DNA from: an uncultured Myxococcales bacterium
GTDB lineage: Bacteria > Myxococcota_A > UBA9042 > DTJE01
Reading direction: 5' to 3'
NCBI GenBank assembly: GCA_903847405.1
Contig: CAINDP010000195.1
Location: 1-44,809 of the forward strand
Length of the DNA stretch: 44,809 nt
In this document: positions 18,140 through 25,807 of the stretch, piece after piece
Position numbering within the stretch: position 1 is the stretch's first letter
How the letters are laid out: each line of letters starts with the position of its first letter
Made by a program: the position numbers and the translations under genes
Notes under the pieces: model-generated
Seen by the model: only the letters and a program-made list of their open reading frames with translations
Told to the model about the DNA's origin: nothing
The model's database searches: none

Positions 18140-19735
18140 CTACGCCTGCTGGGCGCGGATGCGGCGGACGAAGGTCATGACCGTCTGGATGACGGCGGGG
18201 GCCTCCATGTCCAGCAGCATCTCGTGGCCGCTCTTCTCGAACCACACGAGGTTCTTGTCCTTGGAGGACACCTTCTTGTGGATGATCGTGGCCGCCACCG
18301 GGTTCACGACCTGGTCCTTGCGGGTCTCGATGATGACGATCGGCGCCTTCACGAACGACAGCAGGTTCGTGACCTTGTGCGCGTACTCGTACAGCGACGC
18401 GAAGGACGCCGTGGCGAACTTCGGGTAGTTCCGGTTCTCGCGCTTGCGGCACTCGTCGTCGTGGTAGGCGTCGGGGCTCGGCCAGAACTTGATGACCTTG
18501 GCCAGCGCCGGGGTCATGAAGGCCATCGGGTCCGCGAACTTCAGGGCCGCGGCGACCGTCGCGACGCCGACGACCTTGTCGCGGTGCCGGGCAGCCAGTT
18601 CCAGCGCCACGAGGCCTCCCATGGACAGGCCGACCACGAGGATCTTGTCGCACTCACGATACAGGTCCAGCAGGGCGTTTTCGCCGTCCTCGAACCAGTC
18701 GCGGTTCGTGACGCCTTCCATGTCCTGGTACTTCGTGCCGTGGCCACGAAGGATCGGGAAGCGGTAGGGCAGGTCCTCGGTGTCCAGGTACGGGACCAGC
18801 GGGTCCACGCAATGGATGTCGGAGGTGAAGCCGTGCAGCACCAGCACGCCCAGCGGCGCCTTGGTGCCGGCCTTCAGGCCCTTGGGGGACCGGGTGTAGG
18901 CGTAGCGCGGCAGGAAGGACGGTTCCGTCTTGTCGCGGATCGGCACGACGGTCGGGACGAAGTCGCGGGTGAAGTCGATCAGCTCGGACATCGCCAGCAT
19001 GATCTTCTTGGTCGACTTGGCCAGGTCCTCGCGGGTCGTTTCCTTGACCGGCTTCTTGAAGTACAGGGGCTTGCCGAAACGGATCGTCACCGGCGCCGGC
19101 TTGGGCATCGGCGGGAAGACCTCGAACCGGGGATACGCTTCCGGCGGGTACGCCAGGCCGGTGCCCGACAGGCCGCAGGGGATGATCGGGGCGCCGGTGG
19201 CCATGGCGATGCGGACGGCGCCGGAGTGGCCGCGCAGCAGGCCGGTGTCCTTTTCGACGTCCCAGCGCGGCACGTCTTCCTCACCGGGGATGGTCCCCTC
19301 GGGGAAGATGACCACGGCCTTGCCGTCGTTGACTGCCTTGATGATTTCGGCCAGGGCGTCCTTGTCGCCGCCGCGCTTGACGTAGATGCCGTCCGCGAGG
19401 TCGATCGTGCGGCGGAGCATCGGCCATTCCTTGAAGTCCGCCTTGGCCACGAAGAACAGGCGGCGCTTGGTGCCGACGCCGAGCACCTGGGCGTCCAGCC
19501 ACGAACGGTGGTTGGAGGCGATGATGCAGCCACCGGTCTCGGGGATGTTCTCCTCGCCGATGACTTCCAGGTTGTACTGCTTGTCGAAGGACTTCTTCAT
19601 CATGGTCTTGATCGTGCCGTTGAACTTGTCCTTCAGGGGCTCGTACAGGCCGGCCTTCTTGAGGGCGTCCACGCCCAGTCCGACGACCTGGTCCACGGGC
19701 ATCAGCACCTTGTTCACGAGCTCGTACGTTTCCAT
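18140..19735 (-). CDS. PlsC-type acyltransferase fused to alpha/beta hydrolase
   Basis: A 531-residue two-domain protein. Residues about 50-230 form a glycerolipid acyltransferase: NHRSWLD at 75-81 is the HX4D catalytic motif, FPEGT at 144-148 the glycerol-phosphate-binding motif, and GAPIIPCGLSGTG the fourth block. Residues about 290-531 form an alpha/beta hydrolase with LVLHGFTSD, nucleophile Ser371 in GLSMGG, Asp474 in TRKDQVV and His504 in KSGHEML, a complete triad close to monoacylglycerol lipases. Both activities look intact. A protein that both adds and removes acyl groups suggests glycerolipid remodelling. Its neighbours are an alkylglycerone-phosphate-synthase-like enzyme (divergent) and a lipid-kinase homologue. 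ATG 19735 has GAGGAA upstream. Confidence 0.9.
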   Translation of the reverse strand: METYELVNKVLMPVDQVVGLGVDALKKAGLYEPLKDKFNGTIKTMMKKSFDKQYNLEVIGEENIPETGGCIIASNHRSWLDAQVLGVGTKRRLFFVAKADFKEWPMLRRTIDLADGIYVKRGGDKDALAEIIKAVNDGKAVVIFPEGTIPGEEDVPRWDVEKDTGLLRGHSGAVRIAMATGAPIIPCGLSGTGLAYPPEAYPRFEVFPPMPKPAPVTIRFGKPLYFKKPVKETTREDLAKSTKKIMLAMSELIDFTRDFVPTVVPIRDKTEPSFLPRYAYTRSPKGLKAGTKAPLGVLVLHGFTSDIHCVDPLVPYLDTEDLPYRFPILRGHGTKYQDMEGVTNRDWFEDGENALLDLYRECDKILVVGLSMGGLVALELAARHRDKVVGVATVAAALKFADPMAFMTPALAKVIKFWPSPDAYHDDECRKRENRNYPKFATASFASLYEYAHKVTNLLSFVKAPIVIIETRKDQVVNPVAATIIHKKVSSKDKNLVWFEKSGHEMLLDMEAPAVIQTVMTFVRRIRAQQA

Positions 19736-19873
19736 GACGGCGTTCCTCCGTTCTCACGTGGATCAGCCCGAGTCGACTACGGCTTCGGCGAGAGATTGCT
19801 GCGCAACCCGCTCGCCCGCGCCTTCGTGCCCGGGCAGCTTCGGGGAAGGACGTCTCCCCCGCTCGACGGACGA

Positions 19874-19902
19874 AGCATGGCGCGATTGCTGCACCGCGTC
19901 AA
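19874..19902 (-). promoter_or_regulatory. Predicted promoter of the acyltransferase/hydrolase gene
   Basis: Minus strand: TTGACG (19897-19902, 5 of 6), 17-base spacer, weak CATGCT (19874-19879, 3 of 6). It would give a leader of about 130 bases. Confidence 0.35.
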
Positions 19903-19968
19903 GAGTCGAGTTTGCGTCCGGATGTCACGTGCGCCCCTGTCGGGAAAGTCCTCGCACCGAATGGTGTC

Positions 19969-19998
19969 TTGAGTCCTGTGGCGCGTGCGGGGTATGCT
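19969..19998 (+). promoter_or_regulatory. Predicted promoter of the double-FAD enzyme gene
   Basis: TTGAGT (19969-19974), 18-base spacer, TATGCT (19993-19998), each 4 of 6 to consensus. The leader to ATG 20063 would be about 60 bases. Confidence 0.35.
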
Positions 19999-20062
19999 TG
20001 CGCGTCGGATCCTTGGAGCGTCCCGAGGCGGCTTCGGCTTCGGCGGGAGAGGTGGAGTCCCC

Positions 20063-22828
20063 ATGATCGATGACGATACCCTGAACCGGTTGCGCGGAGC
20101 CGCCGGGGAGGACGGTGTTTCCGTTCGACCGGCCGATCTGGACAACGCCTCGTCGGACCAGTGGCCGCGCCTGGGCGTCCTGCGCCTGTCGCGGTCCGCG
20201 CCCGACTGGCGTCCGGAGGCGGTCGCGTGGCCCCGGGACGACGGTGCGGTTGCCGGCATCCTGCGGACCTGTCGCGACGCGGGCATCCCCGTGGTGCCGC
20301 GAGGCGGCGGTTCGGGCGTGTGCGGCGGCGCCGTTCCGGTCGAGGGGGGCGTGGTCCTGGACCTGACCCGGATGAACCGCCTGCTGGAGGTGGACGACCT
20401 GTCGATGACCTGCGTGGTCGAGGCGGGCATGATGGGGAAGGCCCTCGAGGACGCGCTGAACCTCCGGGGCTACACGCTGGGTCACGAACCCTCCTCGATG
20501 GGCATTTCCACGGTCGGCGGCTGGGTTGCGACACGATCGGCCGGCCGGCACTCGGCGCGGTTCGGGAAGATCGAGGATCTGGTGGTGTCGCTGGACGTGG
20601 TCCTGTCCGACGGGACGCCGCTGCGCCTGCACTCGATGGTCGAGCATCGGGATTCGCCCGAACTGGTCCACCTGGTCCTGGGGGCGGAAGGCACGCTGGG
20701 CGCCGTGGTGCGGGTGCGGTTGCGGATCTTCCCGCGCCCGGCGGCGCGCCGGATGGTGGCCTTCCGCTTCATGGAAATGGACATGGGCCTGGAGGCGATG
20801 CGGAACATGCTTCAGGCGGGGTTGCGCCCGTCCCTGCTGCACCTGTACGACCCGATCGAAACGCTGGTGCACGAATTCTCGGAGGCCGAGGCCGGGACGA
20901 CGGATCCGCTGGAGGCCGAGGCCGGGGTGCTGGAAACGGCCCTGCGCCGGCTGGTCCGGGGCGAACTGCCCAGCGTCTCCCGGCGCGTCGCGGCGCGGAT
21001 GCTGCGCCAGACCCTGGCGAACCCGCTGGTGTCGATGCCGATCATGGACCGGTTGCCCCTGTCCAGCCTGATGGTGCTGGGCTTCGAGGGGGACGAGCGG
21101 CGGACGCGGTTCGACCTGGCCGAGGCGACCGACATCGCGCTGCGGGCCACGGGGCGCGACCTGGGGCCGGGTCCGGCCGAGCACTGGTCCAAGCACCAGC
21201 GCTACGCGTCGTCGTATCGTTTGACGCAGGTGTTCGGGCGCGGGGCCTTCACGGACACCGTCGAAGTGTCCGGGCTGTGGCGGGACCTGCCGGGGATCTA
21301 CCGGAAGGTGCGGTCGGCGTTGTCGCACCGCGTGGTCGTCATGGCGTCCTTTGCCCACGCCTACCGCGAGGGGTGCGCCTGCTACTTCACCGCCGTCGGC
21401 GAACAGTCGAACCCCCGGCGCCTGCTGGATCTGTACGACTGGTGCATCCCGACGGGATTGTCCAGTGCCATGGAGGCGGGCGCCTCGCTGAGCCACCACC
21501 ACGGTATCGGCATGATGAAACGCGCCTACACGCCCGAGGAGTTCCGGGGGGGCAGCCGCCTGTTCTGGGCGATCAAGCGCGCGATGGACCCGGCGTGCAT
21601 CATGAATCCACAGAAGGTCTACCCGGGGACGGTGCCGCTGGTGCGCCCGGACGCGGACCGGCTGAACCCGCATGCCGATTCGGCGTCGTGGATGCAGTGG
21701 GACCCCAGCGGCGCCGTGCCCGGCGAGTTCGTTCCCGAGGTGCCCGAGGAACTGCCCGAGGTCCTGGCCCTGGCGCGGCACCACGGCCTGGCCCTGACGT
21801 GCCAGACAGGGGAAGTCCCGCTGGTGCAGGGGGCGGGGCGGAAGTCGAAGTCCGTGAAGCCCGTGCGCCTGATGCTGGACCGGCTGGACCAGGTCGTGGA
21901 AATGGACCCCGTCTCCGGGACCGTGACGGTCCAGTCGGGGCTGACGGTCCTGCAGGTGGAAAACTACCTGCGCGAGCGGGGATACACGCTGGGCTTCGTG
22001 CCGCGGCGCCTGCTGGGCCAGACCGTCGGCGACTACCTGGCCGGCGCCAGTCCGGCGGCCGGCAGTCCCAAGTACGGCACCGTGCGTCAGAACTGCATCG
22101 GGCTGTCGGCGATCCTGGCCGACGGCACCCTGTTTTCGGCCCGTCCGGCGCCGCGGCGATCCACCGGCCCGGACCTGCTGCACTGCTTCATCGGCGCCCG
22201 CGGGCGCTATGGCGTGATCACCGCGGCGTGCTTCCGCGTGTTCCCGCTGCCGACGGTCCGGGAAGCGGTGGCGTTCGGCGTGGACGACCCCGTGACGGCC
22301 GTGGCGGCGGTCCGGACGATCCTCGTCCGGGAGGCGCTGCCCGAATGGGTGCTCCTGGTCGTCCGTGCGCCGACGGCCTCCTCGGGCCACCGGAAGCGGG
22401 TCCGCGTGGTCCTGCAGTTGGGCGGGACGCGGTCCACGGTGTCCTCGGACATGGCGATCATCCGCGACGTGATGGAGCCCCTGGGGCTGGACGCGGAGCC
22501 GATCCGCACCGAGGACCGCATGGTTCCGCCGACGCGGCGGTACCCCTTCCTGGAGCGCTTCCTGCCGATGGACGCGCTGATGGACGCCGCCACCAGCCTG
22601 CGTTCGACCGAGGCCAGTTGTCCGGAGGCCCACATCACCCACGTGTCGATCCAGGGGGCGACGTTGCGGCTGCTGCTGCGGGAAGACGGGCACCAGTTCC
22701 CGCCCGGACTGGAAACGCGCCTGCGTGGCGAGGCCGCCGACCCGGTGCGGCAACAGGTGGCGAAACTGATGAAGGCCGAACTGGACCCTGACGGCATCCT
22801 GAACGCGGCCCTGGACCGGACCGAGTGA
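20063..22828 (+). CDS. Alkylglycerone-phosphate-synthase-like flavoenzyme with second FAD-binding module
   Basis: A 921-residue protein with two flavoprotein modules. Residues 1 to about 540 follow alkylglycerone-phosphate synthase (AGPS) closely: PP-loop PRGGGSGVCGG at 79-89, GHEPSSMGISTVGGW near 130-144, LGAEGTLGAVVRV, the active-site HHHGIG beginning at His478, and KRAMDPACIMNP. AGPS swaps the acyl chain of acyl-dihydroxyacetone phosphate for a fatty alcohol, making the ether bond. From about 545 a second FAD_binding_4-like module begins: LDQVVEMDPVSGTVTVQSG, LGQTVGDYLAG and GARGRYGVIT. Its PP-loop reads QGAGRKS, not the usual GGGTS, so it may not hold FAD. ATG 20063 follows GGTGGAG. Usual AGPS length is about 450-650. 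Confidence 0.88.
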   Translation: MIDDDTLNRLRGAAGEDGVSVRPADLDNASSDQWPRLGVLRLSRSAPDWRPEAVAWPRDDGAVAGILRTCRDAGIPVVPRGGGSGVCGGAVPVEGGVVLDLTRMNRLLEVDDLSMTCVVEAGMMGKALEDALNLRGYTLGHEPSSMGISTVGGWVATRSAGRHSARFGKIEDLVVSLDVVLSDGTPLRLHSMVEHRDSPELVHLVLGAEGTLGAVVRVRLRIFPRPAARRMVAFRFMEMDMGLEAMRNMLQAGLRPSLLHLYDPIETLVHEFSEAEAGTTDPLEAEAGVLETALRRLVRGELPSVSRRVAARMLRQTLANPLVSMPIMDRLPLSSLMVLGFEGDERRTRFDLAEATDIALRATGRDLGPGPAEHWSKHQRYASSYRLTQVFGRGAFTDTVEVSGLWRDLPGIYRKVRSALSHRVVVMASFAHAYREGCACYFTAVGEQSNPRRLLDLYDWCIPTGLSSAMEAGASLSHHHGIGMMKRAYTPEEFRGGSRLFWAIKRAMDPACIMNPQKVYPGTVPLVRPDADRLNPHADSASWMQWDPSGAVPGEFVPEVPEELPEVLALARHHGLALTCQTGEVPLVQGAGRKSKSVKPVRLMLDRLDQVVEMDPVSGTVTVQSGLTVLQVENYLRERGYTLGFVPRRLLGQTVGDYLAGASPAAGSPKYGTVRQNCIGLSAILADGTLFSARPAPRRSTGPDLLHCFIGARGRYGVITAACFRVFPLPTVREAVAFGVDDPVTAVAAVRTILVREALPEWVLLVVRAPTASSGHRKRVRVVLQLGGTRSTVSSDMAIIRDVMEPLGLDAEPIRTEDRMVPPTRRYPFLERFLPMDALMDAATSLRSTEASCPEAHITHVSIQGATLRLLLREDGHQFPPGLETRLRGEAADPVRQQVAKLMKAELDPDGILNAALDRTE

Positions 22829-22868
22829 ACGCGGCCGACCGGCCGACAACAGCAACGGAGGCAAGCAC

Positions 22869-23789
22869 GTGAAGCCGTTCTTCGTGGTGAATCCCCACAG
22901 CGCCAACGGCGCGACCCGGCAGAGGTTCCTGGAGGCCGAGCCGCTGATCCGCGCGGTCTACCCGGCCATGCGGTGCGCGTTCACGGCGGCTCCACTGCAC
23001 GCGACGGAACTGGCCGAGCGTGCTGCGCGGGACGGTGCGGACGTGGTGATCGCCGTGGGCGGGGACGGAACGTTGAACGAGGTCGCCGGCGGGCTGCTGG
23101 CCTCGGGGCGGGCGGCGGAAACGGCCCTGGCGATGCTGGCCAGCGGGACCGGGGGCGACTTCCGCCGGGTGGCCGGCTTCCCGCGGGAACCGGAAAAGAT
23201 GGCGGCGTTCCTGGGGGAGGCCGTGCGCCGTCCCATCGACTGGGGGATGCTGGACTATGTGGATCAGAACGGGAAGGAGTGCCAGCGCCCCTTCGTCAAC
23301 ATCGCCAGCCTGGGCATCTCGGGCGTGGTGGACAAGTTCGTGAACGCGACGTCGAAGGCCCTGGGGGGGCGCGTGTCGTTCCTGGCGGGGACGGTACGCG
23401 GGATGCTGGCGTTCAAGAACGTCCCGATGCGCGTGACGGTCGACGGGAACATGTTCCACGAGGGCCCGACGAACCTGGTGGCCATCGCGAACGGGCAGTA
23501 CTTCGGGGGCGGGATGCGGGTCGCGCCGGACGCGAAACTGGATGACGGCCTGTTCGACGTCGTGGTGTTCGAGGACCTGTCGAAGATCGAGTTCCTGGCG
23601 CTGGCCAGCGTGATTTACGGCGGCCGTCACCTGGGTCGGCCGAAGGTGCGGGTGACGCGCGGCACGGTGGTGGTCGTCGAGGCGGTCGGGGATGCGCTGA
23701 TCGATCTGGACGGCGAGCAGGTCGGGCGGGCGCCGGCACGGGCGACGATGCACGCCGGGGGCCTGGTCGCGTTGATGCCGCGGGAGTGA
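22869..23789 (+). CDS. Diacylglycerol/lipid kinase family protein
   Basis: A 306-residue cytoplasmic enzyme of the DAGK catalytic family (DgkB/YegS/sphingosine-kinase type). The signatures are NPHSANG at 8-14, the ATP-binding VGGDGTLNEV at 63-72, ASGTGGDFRR near 98-107 in place of the usual GT.NDfA.., NIASLGISGVVD, and a C-terminal DLDGEQVG, the usual 'iDGE' motif. These enzymes phosphorylate diacylglycerol, sphingoid bases or related lipids. The gene starts with GTG 22869 behind GGAGG and follows the AGPS-like gene by 40 bases, probably co-transcribed. In that setting a lipid alcohol made or used by the neighbours is a plausible substrate. Confidence 0.9.
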   Translation: MKPFFVVNPHSANGATRQRFLEAEPLIRAVYPAMRCAFTAAPLHATELAERAARDGADVVIAVGGDGTLNEVAGGLLASGRAAETALAMLASGTGGDFRRVAGFPREPEKMAAFLGEAVRRPIDWGMLDYVDQNGKECQRPFVNIASLGISGVVDKFVNATSKALGGRVSFLAGTVRGMLAFKNVPMRVTVDGNMFHEGPTNLVAIANGQYFGGGMRVAPDAKLDDGLFDVVVFEDLSKIEFLALASVIYGGRHLGRPKVRVTRGTVVVVEAVGDALIDLDGEQVGRAPARATMHAGGLVALMPRE

Positions 23790-23800
23790 GGACGGTGAGA

Positions 23801-25807
23801 ATGACGGGGCGCAACGCCTGGGCGGTCGCGTTCGTGGTGGTGGCGACGTGCGTTGCGCGGGGCGCGGGCGCGGTGGAAATCCAGTCCGTGACGCGGGTCG
23901 ATGGGGGAGGGCCGGTCCTCGTCGGGCAGCGGGTCGAGTTCGCGGTTGTGCTGGGGAAGTCCTACGCGAACCCCTTCGATCCGGTCGCGATGGTGAAGGT
24001 CGCGGCGTCCTTCACGCGGGAGGGCGGCGCGCCCGTGATCGTCGGGGGATTCTGGTTCCAGGACTACGTGGCGTCGTACGACCAGGGGCGGGAAACGCTG
24101 ACGCCCCGGGGCGATCCCGGCTGGCGCGTGCGGTTCCGACCGATGGAGGCCGGCACGTACACGATGGGCCTGACGGTGCTGGACGTCGCGGAAGGTGTCA
24201 CGACGGAAGGCCCGACCGGGGCCGACGCGCAGACGCTGGACGCAGGCACGACCGCGCTGCCGACCGACGGGTTCGTGACCGTGGACGACGCGCCGGGACA
24301 GCAACCGGGGTTCCAGCGCAACGGCAAGCCATGGGTGCCGTTCGGGGCCAACGTCTGCTGGTCGGGTGCGGGGGGCACGAAGGACATCGAGGGCTGGTAC
24401 CAGGAAATGAAGACGGCGGGGCTGCAGTGGTCCCGCCTGTGGATGACCAGTTTCGACGGGACCGCGCTGGAGTGGAAGACCGGCGCCGACGACGGCGGGT
24501 ACGCGGGGCTGGGGACCTACAACCTGAAGGCGGCGTGGCGCGTGGACCGCATCCTGCAACTGGCGGAGGAGCGCGGGATCGCGCTGCAACTGGTGCTGCA
24601 GCAGCATTCGCAGTTCGAGTGCCAGCAATGGTCGTCCTGGGGCGACAACCCGTGGAACGTTGCGAACGGCGGGCCGTGCCGGCAGAGCATGGAGTTCTTC
24701 ACGAACGCCGACGTGGCCGCGGGGTTCGACGCCAGGCTGCGCTACATCGCCGCGCGGTTTGCCGACTCGCCCGCGATCATGGCCTGGGAACTGTGGAACG
24801 AGGTGGACCTGATCACCGGGTACCAGGCGGAGGTCGTCGCCACGTGGGCGCACCAGCGCGTCCCGCTGCTGAAGTCGATGGACCCGTACGGTCACCTGGT
24901 GACCACGTCGTATGCGTGGCCGCCCGCGGACGATCAGGACTGGCAGTACGAGGGGTACGACTTCGCGCAGTTCCACAGTTACCTGGCGATGTACGCGGAC
25001 TGGCTGCCGCAGTGGGCGTCGGACCTGCGCAAGTACGGCAAGCCGGTCGTGCTGGGGGAGTTCGGGATCGACACCCAGGGCAGCGACAACCTGAAGGACA
25101 CGGACGGGACGCACCTGGTCAACGCGACGATGCTGTCGGTGCTGTCGGGGTTCACGGGCGGAGCGATGTCGTGGTGGTGGGACAACTACCTGACGCCCGA
25201 CGGGCTGTGGATGCCCCTGGGGAACGTGGCGGCGCGGCTGCGCGCGGTGGGCGCGGCGCACGTGGTGGAACCTCTGCCCGCGGACGGCGTGATGGTCACG
25301 GAAGCCGATCCGGTGGTCGACGGGCATGCCGTGGAAGGGCGGGCGGCGCGGACGACCGACGGGGTCCTGGTCTGGCTGCACGACGCCGGTTCGGAGTGGA
25401 ACCGCGCGGCCGACTGGGCGCCGATTGACCACATCGGAGTGGTCGTTGACGTGGCGGGCCTCCGCCTGGACGGGGGCCTCTGCCGTGGCTTCATGCAGCA
25501 GTGCGACCCCCGGGGCGAATGCGCGGACATCGACGGGGCCCAATCGACCCAGGACACCGCGGAGGGGGCGATCCGGCTGACGGCGGACGTCTTCACCCGG
25601 GACCTGCTGATCCAGGTGCACTGCCTGGGGTCCTTCGGCGAAGACCCGGGTGGGGCGGGGGATACGGCGGGCGGCGAGGATTCCGGGACGACGGATGGGG
25701 CGGGCTCGGACGACGGGACGCCTGGGGACGGGATGGACGCGGCGGATGTGCCGGACGAACCGGAAGCCCCGCGGCCCCGTTCCCGCGGGTGCAGCGCAGC
25801 ATTCTAG
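23801..25807 (+). CDS. Secreted GH5-like glycosidase with DUF5060-like N-terminus and cut-short sorting tail
   Basis: A 668-residue exported protein: signal peptide to about residue 25 (ARGAGA), then a beta domain like DUF5060 (RVEFAVVLGKSYANPFDP), then a clan-A TIM barrel from about 160 to 480. The two catalytic carboxylates are visible: Glu334 in ELWNEVD and Glu420 in VLGEFGID. The NE dipeptide and the following strand pattern fit GH5-type endo-glycanases. A Cys-containing beta domain and a Gly/Asp/Thr linker follow. The protein ends RSRGCSAAF, the Gly-Cys of a MYXO-CTERM signal without its hydrophobic helix and Arg cluster. ATG 23801 is preferred, with GTG 23786 as an alternative. It lies 11 bases after the kinase gene. 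Confidence 0.85.
   Translation: MTGRNAWAVAFVVVATCVARGAGAVEIQSVTRVDGGGPVLVGQRVEFAVVLGKSYANPFDPVAMVKVAASFTREGGAPVIVGGFWFQDYVASYDQGRETLTPRGDPGWRVRFRPMEAGTYTMGLTVLDVAEGVTTEGPTGADAQTLDAGTTALPTDGFVTVDDAPGQQPGFQRNGKPWVPFGANVCWSGAGGTKDIEGWYQEMKTAGLQWSRLWMTSFDGTALEWKTGADDGGYAGLGTYNLKAAWRVDRILQLAEERGIALQLVLQQHSQFECQQWSSWGDNPWNVANGGPCRQSMEFFTNADVAAGFDARLRYIAARFADSPAIMAWELWNEVDLITGYQAEVVATWAHQRVPLLKSMDPYGHLVTTSYAWPPADDQDWQYEGYDFAQFHSYLAMYADWLPQWASDLRKYGKPVVLGEFGIDTQGSDNLKDTDGTHLVNATMLSVLSGFTGGAMSWWWDNYLTPDGLWMPLGNVAARLRAVGAAHVVEPLPADGVMVTEADPVVDGHAVEGRAARTTDGVLVWLHDAGSEWNRAADWAPIDHIGVVVDVAGLRLDGGLCRGFMQQCDPRGECADIDGAQSTQDTAEGAIRLTADVFTRDLLIQVHCLGSFGEDPGGAGDTAGGEDSGTTDGAGSDDGTPGDGMDAADVPDEPEAPRPRSRGCSAAF

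Follow-up and report, generated by a model that had tools for sequence, protein, structure and literature searches.

A fused, two-module sister of alkyl-DHAP synthase without its relatives' iron-sulfur partner gene in an uncultured Myxococcales bacterium

We find that a 947-aa flavoprotein of an uncultured Myxococcales bacterium is the product of a fusion of two neighbouring flavoprotein subunit genes, one of the alkyl-DHAP synthase (AGPS) superfamily and the other GlcE-like, and that it remains under purifying selection even though its genus has lost both the arginine that aligns with AGPS Arg419 and the iron-sulfur gene that lies next to the unfused genes of many relatives. The gene lies in the window, by which we mean the whole stretch of 44,809 nucleotides that was analysed. 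Taken as a whole, the best explanation, to which we assign a probability of roughly 0.55, is that the protein is a fused, Fe-S-uncoupled sister of AGPS with a modified role in lipid metabolism.

The locus and its fused proteins

An earlier note on this DNA had proposed an ether-lipid locus made of a PlsC acyltransferase-hydrolase gene, an AGPS-like flavoprotein gene, and a DAGK-family kinase gene, and all three open reading frames are present where the note had placed them. The acyltransferase-hydrolase gene (18140..19735, minus strand, 531 aa) is divergent relative to the flavoprotein gene (19985-22828, plus strand), not co-directional with it. The kinase gene (22869..23789, plus strand) begins 40 bases past the flavoprotein stop, and the gene for a GH5-like secreted protein with DUF5060 and Cellulase domains (23786..25807, plus strand) shares its first 4 bases with the end of the kinase gene. 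Because of this 40-base gap followed by a 4-base overlap, a single transcript is plausible for the FAD, DAGK, and GH5-like genes, and for these only. A promoter and terminator scan of the region between the divergent genes returned none, which is uninformative at such GC content. The GH5-like gene is not conserved across the wider flavoprotein family; its product has an Asp/Gly-rich C-terminal tail ending in RGCSAAF that by eye resembles a MYXO-CTERM-type sorting tail. The GTG start of the flavoprotein is doubtful, and the true start is probably M27 (ATG, about 20063), which is nearly invariant in the fused homologues; residues 1-24 are modelled with pLDDT <50. The genome is a draft of 5.65 Mb in 273 contigs, 96.7% complete, and absences from it are not absolute.

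Pfam assigns two FAD_binding_4 domains and one FAD-oxidase_C domain to the flavoprotein. The N module (19985..21640, plus strand) has FAD_binding_4 plus FAD-oxidase_C over residues ~27-552 and belongs to the AGPS superfamily, and the C module (21695..22828, plus strand), also of FAD_binding_4 type, occupies the GlcE position and is a separate gene in sister families. Full-length fusions occur in families f1 and f2, in 11 genomes besides the window's, and elsewhere in the class the two modules are mostly encoded by separate neighbouring genes, of ~550 aa for N and ~400 aa for C, with a partial exception in the 814-aa open reading frame of L047. The AGPS catalytic motifs are all absent from the C module, whose PP-loop region is by eye degenerate and whose profile is equally near AGPS and GlcD; its GlcE-likeness is one of position and fold family. 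Among the listed structure matches of the whole-protein model none extends to the C module, though this is no argument for a new fold. The "two-module AGPS-like enzyme" of the earlier note does have two modules, and is better described as a fused GlcD/GlcE-like gene pair whose GlcF-like third member is gone.

The acyltransferase-hydrolase protein is itself a fusion of a PlsC-type acyltransferase with a bacterial monoacylglycerol-lipase (MAGL)-like alpha/beta hydrolase, as had been claimed, and here Pfam (Acyltransferase PF01553, 93 bits; Hydrolase_4 PF12146, 70 bits), motifs, and nearest structures agree. The PlsC half contains NHRSWLD (HX4D) and FPEGT, the hydrolase half contains GLSMGG (GxSxG) with its Asp and His, and the best PDB matches are PlsC 5kym for the N half and a thermostable MAGL for the C half. 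Of 237 Myxococcota genomes, 20 encode this fusion at full length, scattered over families. Among the families checked, it adjoins the flavoprotein gene only in f1, lies kilobases away in G005 and G011, and is on other contigs in G013, G014, G020, and G021, so we reject a conserved unit of the two genes. The fusion is real, but the protein probably stands outside the flavoprotein system.

Kinship to AGPS and the altered active site

In phmmer searches of the PDB, the N module matches AGPS best (169 bits for Dictyostelium, 133-138 bits for guinea pig), with lactate and glycolate enzymes behind at 115-117 bits. Residues 23-552 of the AlphaFold2 model of the 947-aa protein (pTM 0.80) match both AGPS and D-lactate dehydrogenase structures, and the N module has the AGPS-type fold. 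Foldseek puts AGPS on top, whereas the highest structure Z belongs to D-lactate dehydrogenase (37, versus 35 for AGPS), and because these values are close the fold by itself does not decide between the two. A tree with 23 members of the family, 17 AGPS-type proteins, and, for contrast, GlcD, lactate, and 2-hydroxyglutarate (D2HGDH) enzymes groups the N module with AGPS and apart from all three of these with support of 100/100. The earlier note had described the enzyme as AGPS-like and had named branching of its N-terminal half with glycolate or lactate oxidases as a refutation; the kinship held and that branching did not appear. Characterised AGPS proteins form a clade of their own (100/99) with the window's family outside it, and a 70-row tree that includes named genomes gives the same grouping, although the window's family may be paraphyletic around AGPS. 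The N module is thus related to AGPS yet not within AGPS. The hydroxyacid-dehydrogenase motifs GDGN(L)H and GEHG are not in the N module, which has the AGPS-type Tyr and SHHHG instead, and on trees and motifs together we reject reading it as a GlcD or lactate oxidase.

The flavoprotein was said to have all AGPS signatures, and those named are present: TVGGW within STVGGW (residues 175-180, 20507..20524, plus strand; the T309 region of guinea-pig AGPS), HHHGIG (residues 504-509) within SHHHGIG (21491..21511, plus strand; AGPS H615-H617), and an intact PP-loop, PRGGGSGVCGG, at residues 105-115. The Tyr578 equivalent (Y467) and the three His are also kept. The signature set is broken at the position of guinea-pig Arg419, which aligns with His286 (CAC, 20840..20842, plus strand). 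Relatives retain R419, Y578, and H615-H617 in guinea-pig numbering, whereas the three species of the window's genus have H, Q, and H at the R419 position. Outside the genus, Arg is found in all aligned homologues except that of G023, and in a set of 80 homologous loci of other genomes the sole exception is L176, a contig of the window's own genus. In 2012, Nenci et al. are said to have found that R419H inactivates AGPS, and the change reportedly occurs in chondrodysplasia type 3. By their PDB titles, 4bc7 is the Arg419His mutant and 4bca the Tyr578Phe mutant of guinea-pig AGPS, and the alignments show the difference in sequence directly. The flavoprotein gene is still under purifying selection, with a dN/dS of 0.12-0.21 that is similar to that of an intact AGPS homologue encoded on contig C78 of the same genome.

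That homologue bears directly on the ether-lipid proposal. It is full-length, scores 321 bits to Dictyostelium AGPS, and keeps R419, and the search for other AGPS genes that the earlier note had suggested yielded it along with an AGPS-like gene on C107. The C107 gene (L102:5823-9040, 551 aa) overlaps a GlpD/glycerophosphate-oxidase-like gene and lies beside a GntR/FadR-type regulator. The suggested search for fatty-acyl-CoA reductases (FAR) found no strong candidate: the best PF07993 match in this ~97%-complete draft is 47 bits, in the epimerase range, versus 190-208 bits in G016 and G018. The draft also contains no CarF/PEDS1 desaturase. In Myxococcus xanthus, ElbD is the main contributor to ether lipids, MXAN_1676 (AGPS) is a minor one, and CarF is the desaturase (PMC9131029). 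ElbD carries a FAR-like domain, of the kind for which the window genome has no strong PF07993 match. In G018, of the same class, the genes for AGPS, a FAR/acyltransferase, and an epimerase (L113:4297-10055, on C132) have the layout of M. xanthus MXAN_1676-1674, and the same genome has CarF and an operon of the window's flavoprotein family. Because the genuine AGPS operon and the operon of the window's family coexist in G018, we regard them as separate systems.

One alternative, that of the earlier note, has the N module functioning as an alkyl-DHAP synthase in a locus for the synthesis, trimming, and phosphorylation of ether lipids. Consistent with this are the grouping with AGPS in the tree, the phmmer and Foldseek rankings, the retained Tyr578, HHH, and STVGGW equivalents, and the adjoining lipid kinase. 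We nonetheless consider it decidedly unlikely, given the His at the R419 position, as in the mutant structure 4bc7, the better AGPS homologue on C78, the absence of a strong FAR and of CarF from the draft, and the two coexisting operons in G018. On the same features we reject an ether-lipid locus here: the organism may make ether lipids, but the evidence does not point to this locus, and the flavoprotein probably does not synthesise them.

Iron-sulfur and kinase partners

In the unfused operons of relatives, the N gene and the C gene are followed by a gene for a Fer4_8 plus CCG protein, a DAGK-family kinase gene, and often an Lnt-like gene. The CCG protein aligns to E. coli GlcF across 338 columns, and the order of E. 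coli glcD-glcE-glcF is identical to the N, C, CCG order of the relatives. This order, with a fold shared with D-lactate dehydrogenase, would fit a GlcDEF-type 2-hydroxyacid (glycolate or D-lactate) dehydrogenase that merely resembles AGPS. Against such an enzyme, the trees place the N module with AGPS and not with GlcD or lactate dehydrogenase, the hydroxyacid-dehydrogenase motifs are replaced by the AGPS-type Tyr and SHHHG, and the neighbours are a lipid kinase and an Lnt-like gene, and we think it very improbable.

An Fe-S/CCG gene lies near 33 of the 67 family loci from named genomes, including Asgard and other archaea, and a kinase gene near 19 of the 67, including Actinomycetota. The claim that a lipid kinase stands beside the AGPS-like flavoprotein therefore describes a recurrent arrangement, and the window's third gene does encode a DAGK-family lipid kinase of the YegS/Rv2252/BmrU family (DAGK_cat plus YegS_C, GGDG, TIGR00147 over cut-off). 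About one-third of the family loci, some on short contigs, have neither gene nearby, so coupling is not universal. Sorangium-type members are ~700 aa long with a C-terminal extension. We also observed that two AGPS-clade genes of Nannocystis adjoin a kinase. The Lnt-like protein that comes after the kinase in unfused operons (~910-965 aa, LNT_N plus CN_hydrolase) is apolipoprotein N-acyltransferase-like, and its genes lie at L047:4866-7589, L052:13765-16518, and L053:14316-17213, and also in L139, L141, and L147. In Asgard and other archaea (L174, L180, L181, L183, L184, L185, L187, and L188), the AGPS-sister subunit adjoins a CCG protein and keeps the Arg and HHH.

The FAD-FAD-Fe-S gene order of the unfused relatives is not found at the window locus. 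No CCG gene lies beside the flavoprotein gene in G000-G002, G003, G005, G009, G011, or G023, and in the seven of these genomes assigned to the window's family there is no close CCG copy elsewhere either. We considered relocation of a GlcF-like gene within the window genome and rejected it, as only generic CCG proteins of ~28% identity were found. Among genomes of the class, seven of the eight without the Fe-S gene have altered catalytic residues, versus none of the 15 with it (Fisher p = 3e-5, uncorrected for kinship). The changes reflect at least four separate decay events (the window's genus, g2, G011, and G023), and g2 and G011 have lost further catalytic residues, whereas G005, also without the Fe-S gene, retains every one. 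A single event may account for the missing Fe-S gene of g1, g2, and g4. Because residue changes track the absence of the Fe-S gene, we infer that the ancestral enzyme had an AGPS-type site coupled to an Fe-S subunit, and that the window protein has a changed or reduced function.

Our preferred explanation would join these results as follows. In the sister lineages, the N subunit, catalytic and of the AGPS superfamily, would combine with a shorter C subunit of GlcE-like FAD fold and a GlcF-like [4Fe-4S]/CCG subunit into a membrane- or quinone-linked flavo-iron-sulfur dehydrogenase. Its substrate may be of the glycerolipid or glycerophosphate type, from the same lipid pool that the co-encoded DAGK-family kinase would handle. 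In the window's genus the first two subunits are fused, the Fe-S subunit appears to be gone, and His or Gln stands in place of Arg419, so that the N module most likely carries out neither the AGPS exchange reaction nor full electron transfer, and the protein would have been retained for a modified role in lipid metabolism. Another account would have the fusion in the window's genus be a pseudo-enzyme, without catalysis of its own, that scaffolds or regulates the neighbouring lipid kinase. The lost Arg, the further residues lost in g2 and G011, the lost Fe-S partner, the persistent purifying selection, and the kinase that still adjoins in g1 would all suit such a role, but in the genus the N module keeps its PP-loop and most of the remaining catalytic residues survive, and dN/dS is no higher than for the intact AGPS homologue; we judge it unlikely. 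We put forward more tentatively the broader proposal that the unfused family, AGPS-type plus GlcE-like plus GlcF-like and often with the lipid kinase and Lnt-like protein, may be a flavo-iron-sulfur enzyme for the oxidation or rebuilding of glycerolipids, with a range that spans Myxococcota, Actinomycetota, and Asgard archaea; the window protein would belong to a lineage in which this enzyme was fused, uncoupled, and repurposed.

AGPS is one of the few enzymes that use flavin without net redox change, and an Fe-S-linked sister lineage could show how its chemistry arose from, or returned to, that of ordinary dehydrogenases. Its presence in bacteria as well as Asgard archaea, often beside a lipid kinase, suggests a step of lipid redox metabolism that has gone unrecognised. 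For annotation, AGPS-like matches in Myxococcota need not mean ether lipids.

Comparison with known systems

With AGPS of guinea pig (4bby), Dictyostelium (2uuu), and M. xanthus (MXAN_1676), the window protein, as a member of a sister lineage, shares the fold, the domains, STVGGW, Tyr578, and HHH. It differs in lying outside their clade, in the loss of R419 in its genus, and in its fused second FAD-fold module; its relatives have an Fe-S partner, and no FAR or GNPAT genes lie alongside. Kinship to AGPS is likewise shared with ElbD and the M. xanthus MXAN_1676-1674 operon, the layout of which G018 has, but the window locus has no FAR/acyltransferase partner and is a paralogous, separate system. 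With E. coli GlcDEF, the unfused relatives share the order of FAD subunit, second FAD_binding_4 subunit, and Fe-S/CCG protein. Unlike GlcDEF, the catalytic subunit is AGPS-type, the first two subunits are fused, and the window's genus lacks the Fe-S gene.

Searches of the literature for Rv2251, R419H, and a link between AGPS, DAGK, and glycolate oxidase found no functional data. The earlier note knew of no such arrangement of genes, yet the flavoprotein-kinase pair has a parallel in mycobacteria, where glpD1 (Rv2249c) is followed by a regulator, the flavoprotein Rv2251, and the diacylglycerol kinase Rv2252 (PMC4564863), which phosphorylates diacylglycerol (PMC3229680). There, as in the window, a flavoprotein adjoins a kinase of the YegS/Rv2252 family, a likeness of gene layout. 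We know of no flavoprotein fusion at Rv2251-Rv2252. Within the window's own family, the flavoprotein gene of the Actinomycetota member L191 is likewise paired with a kinase gene, and a GlpD-like gene lies close by.
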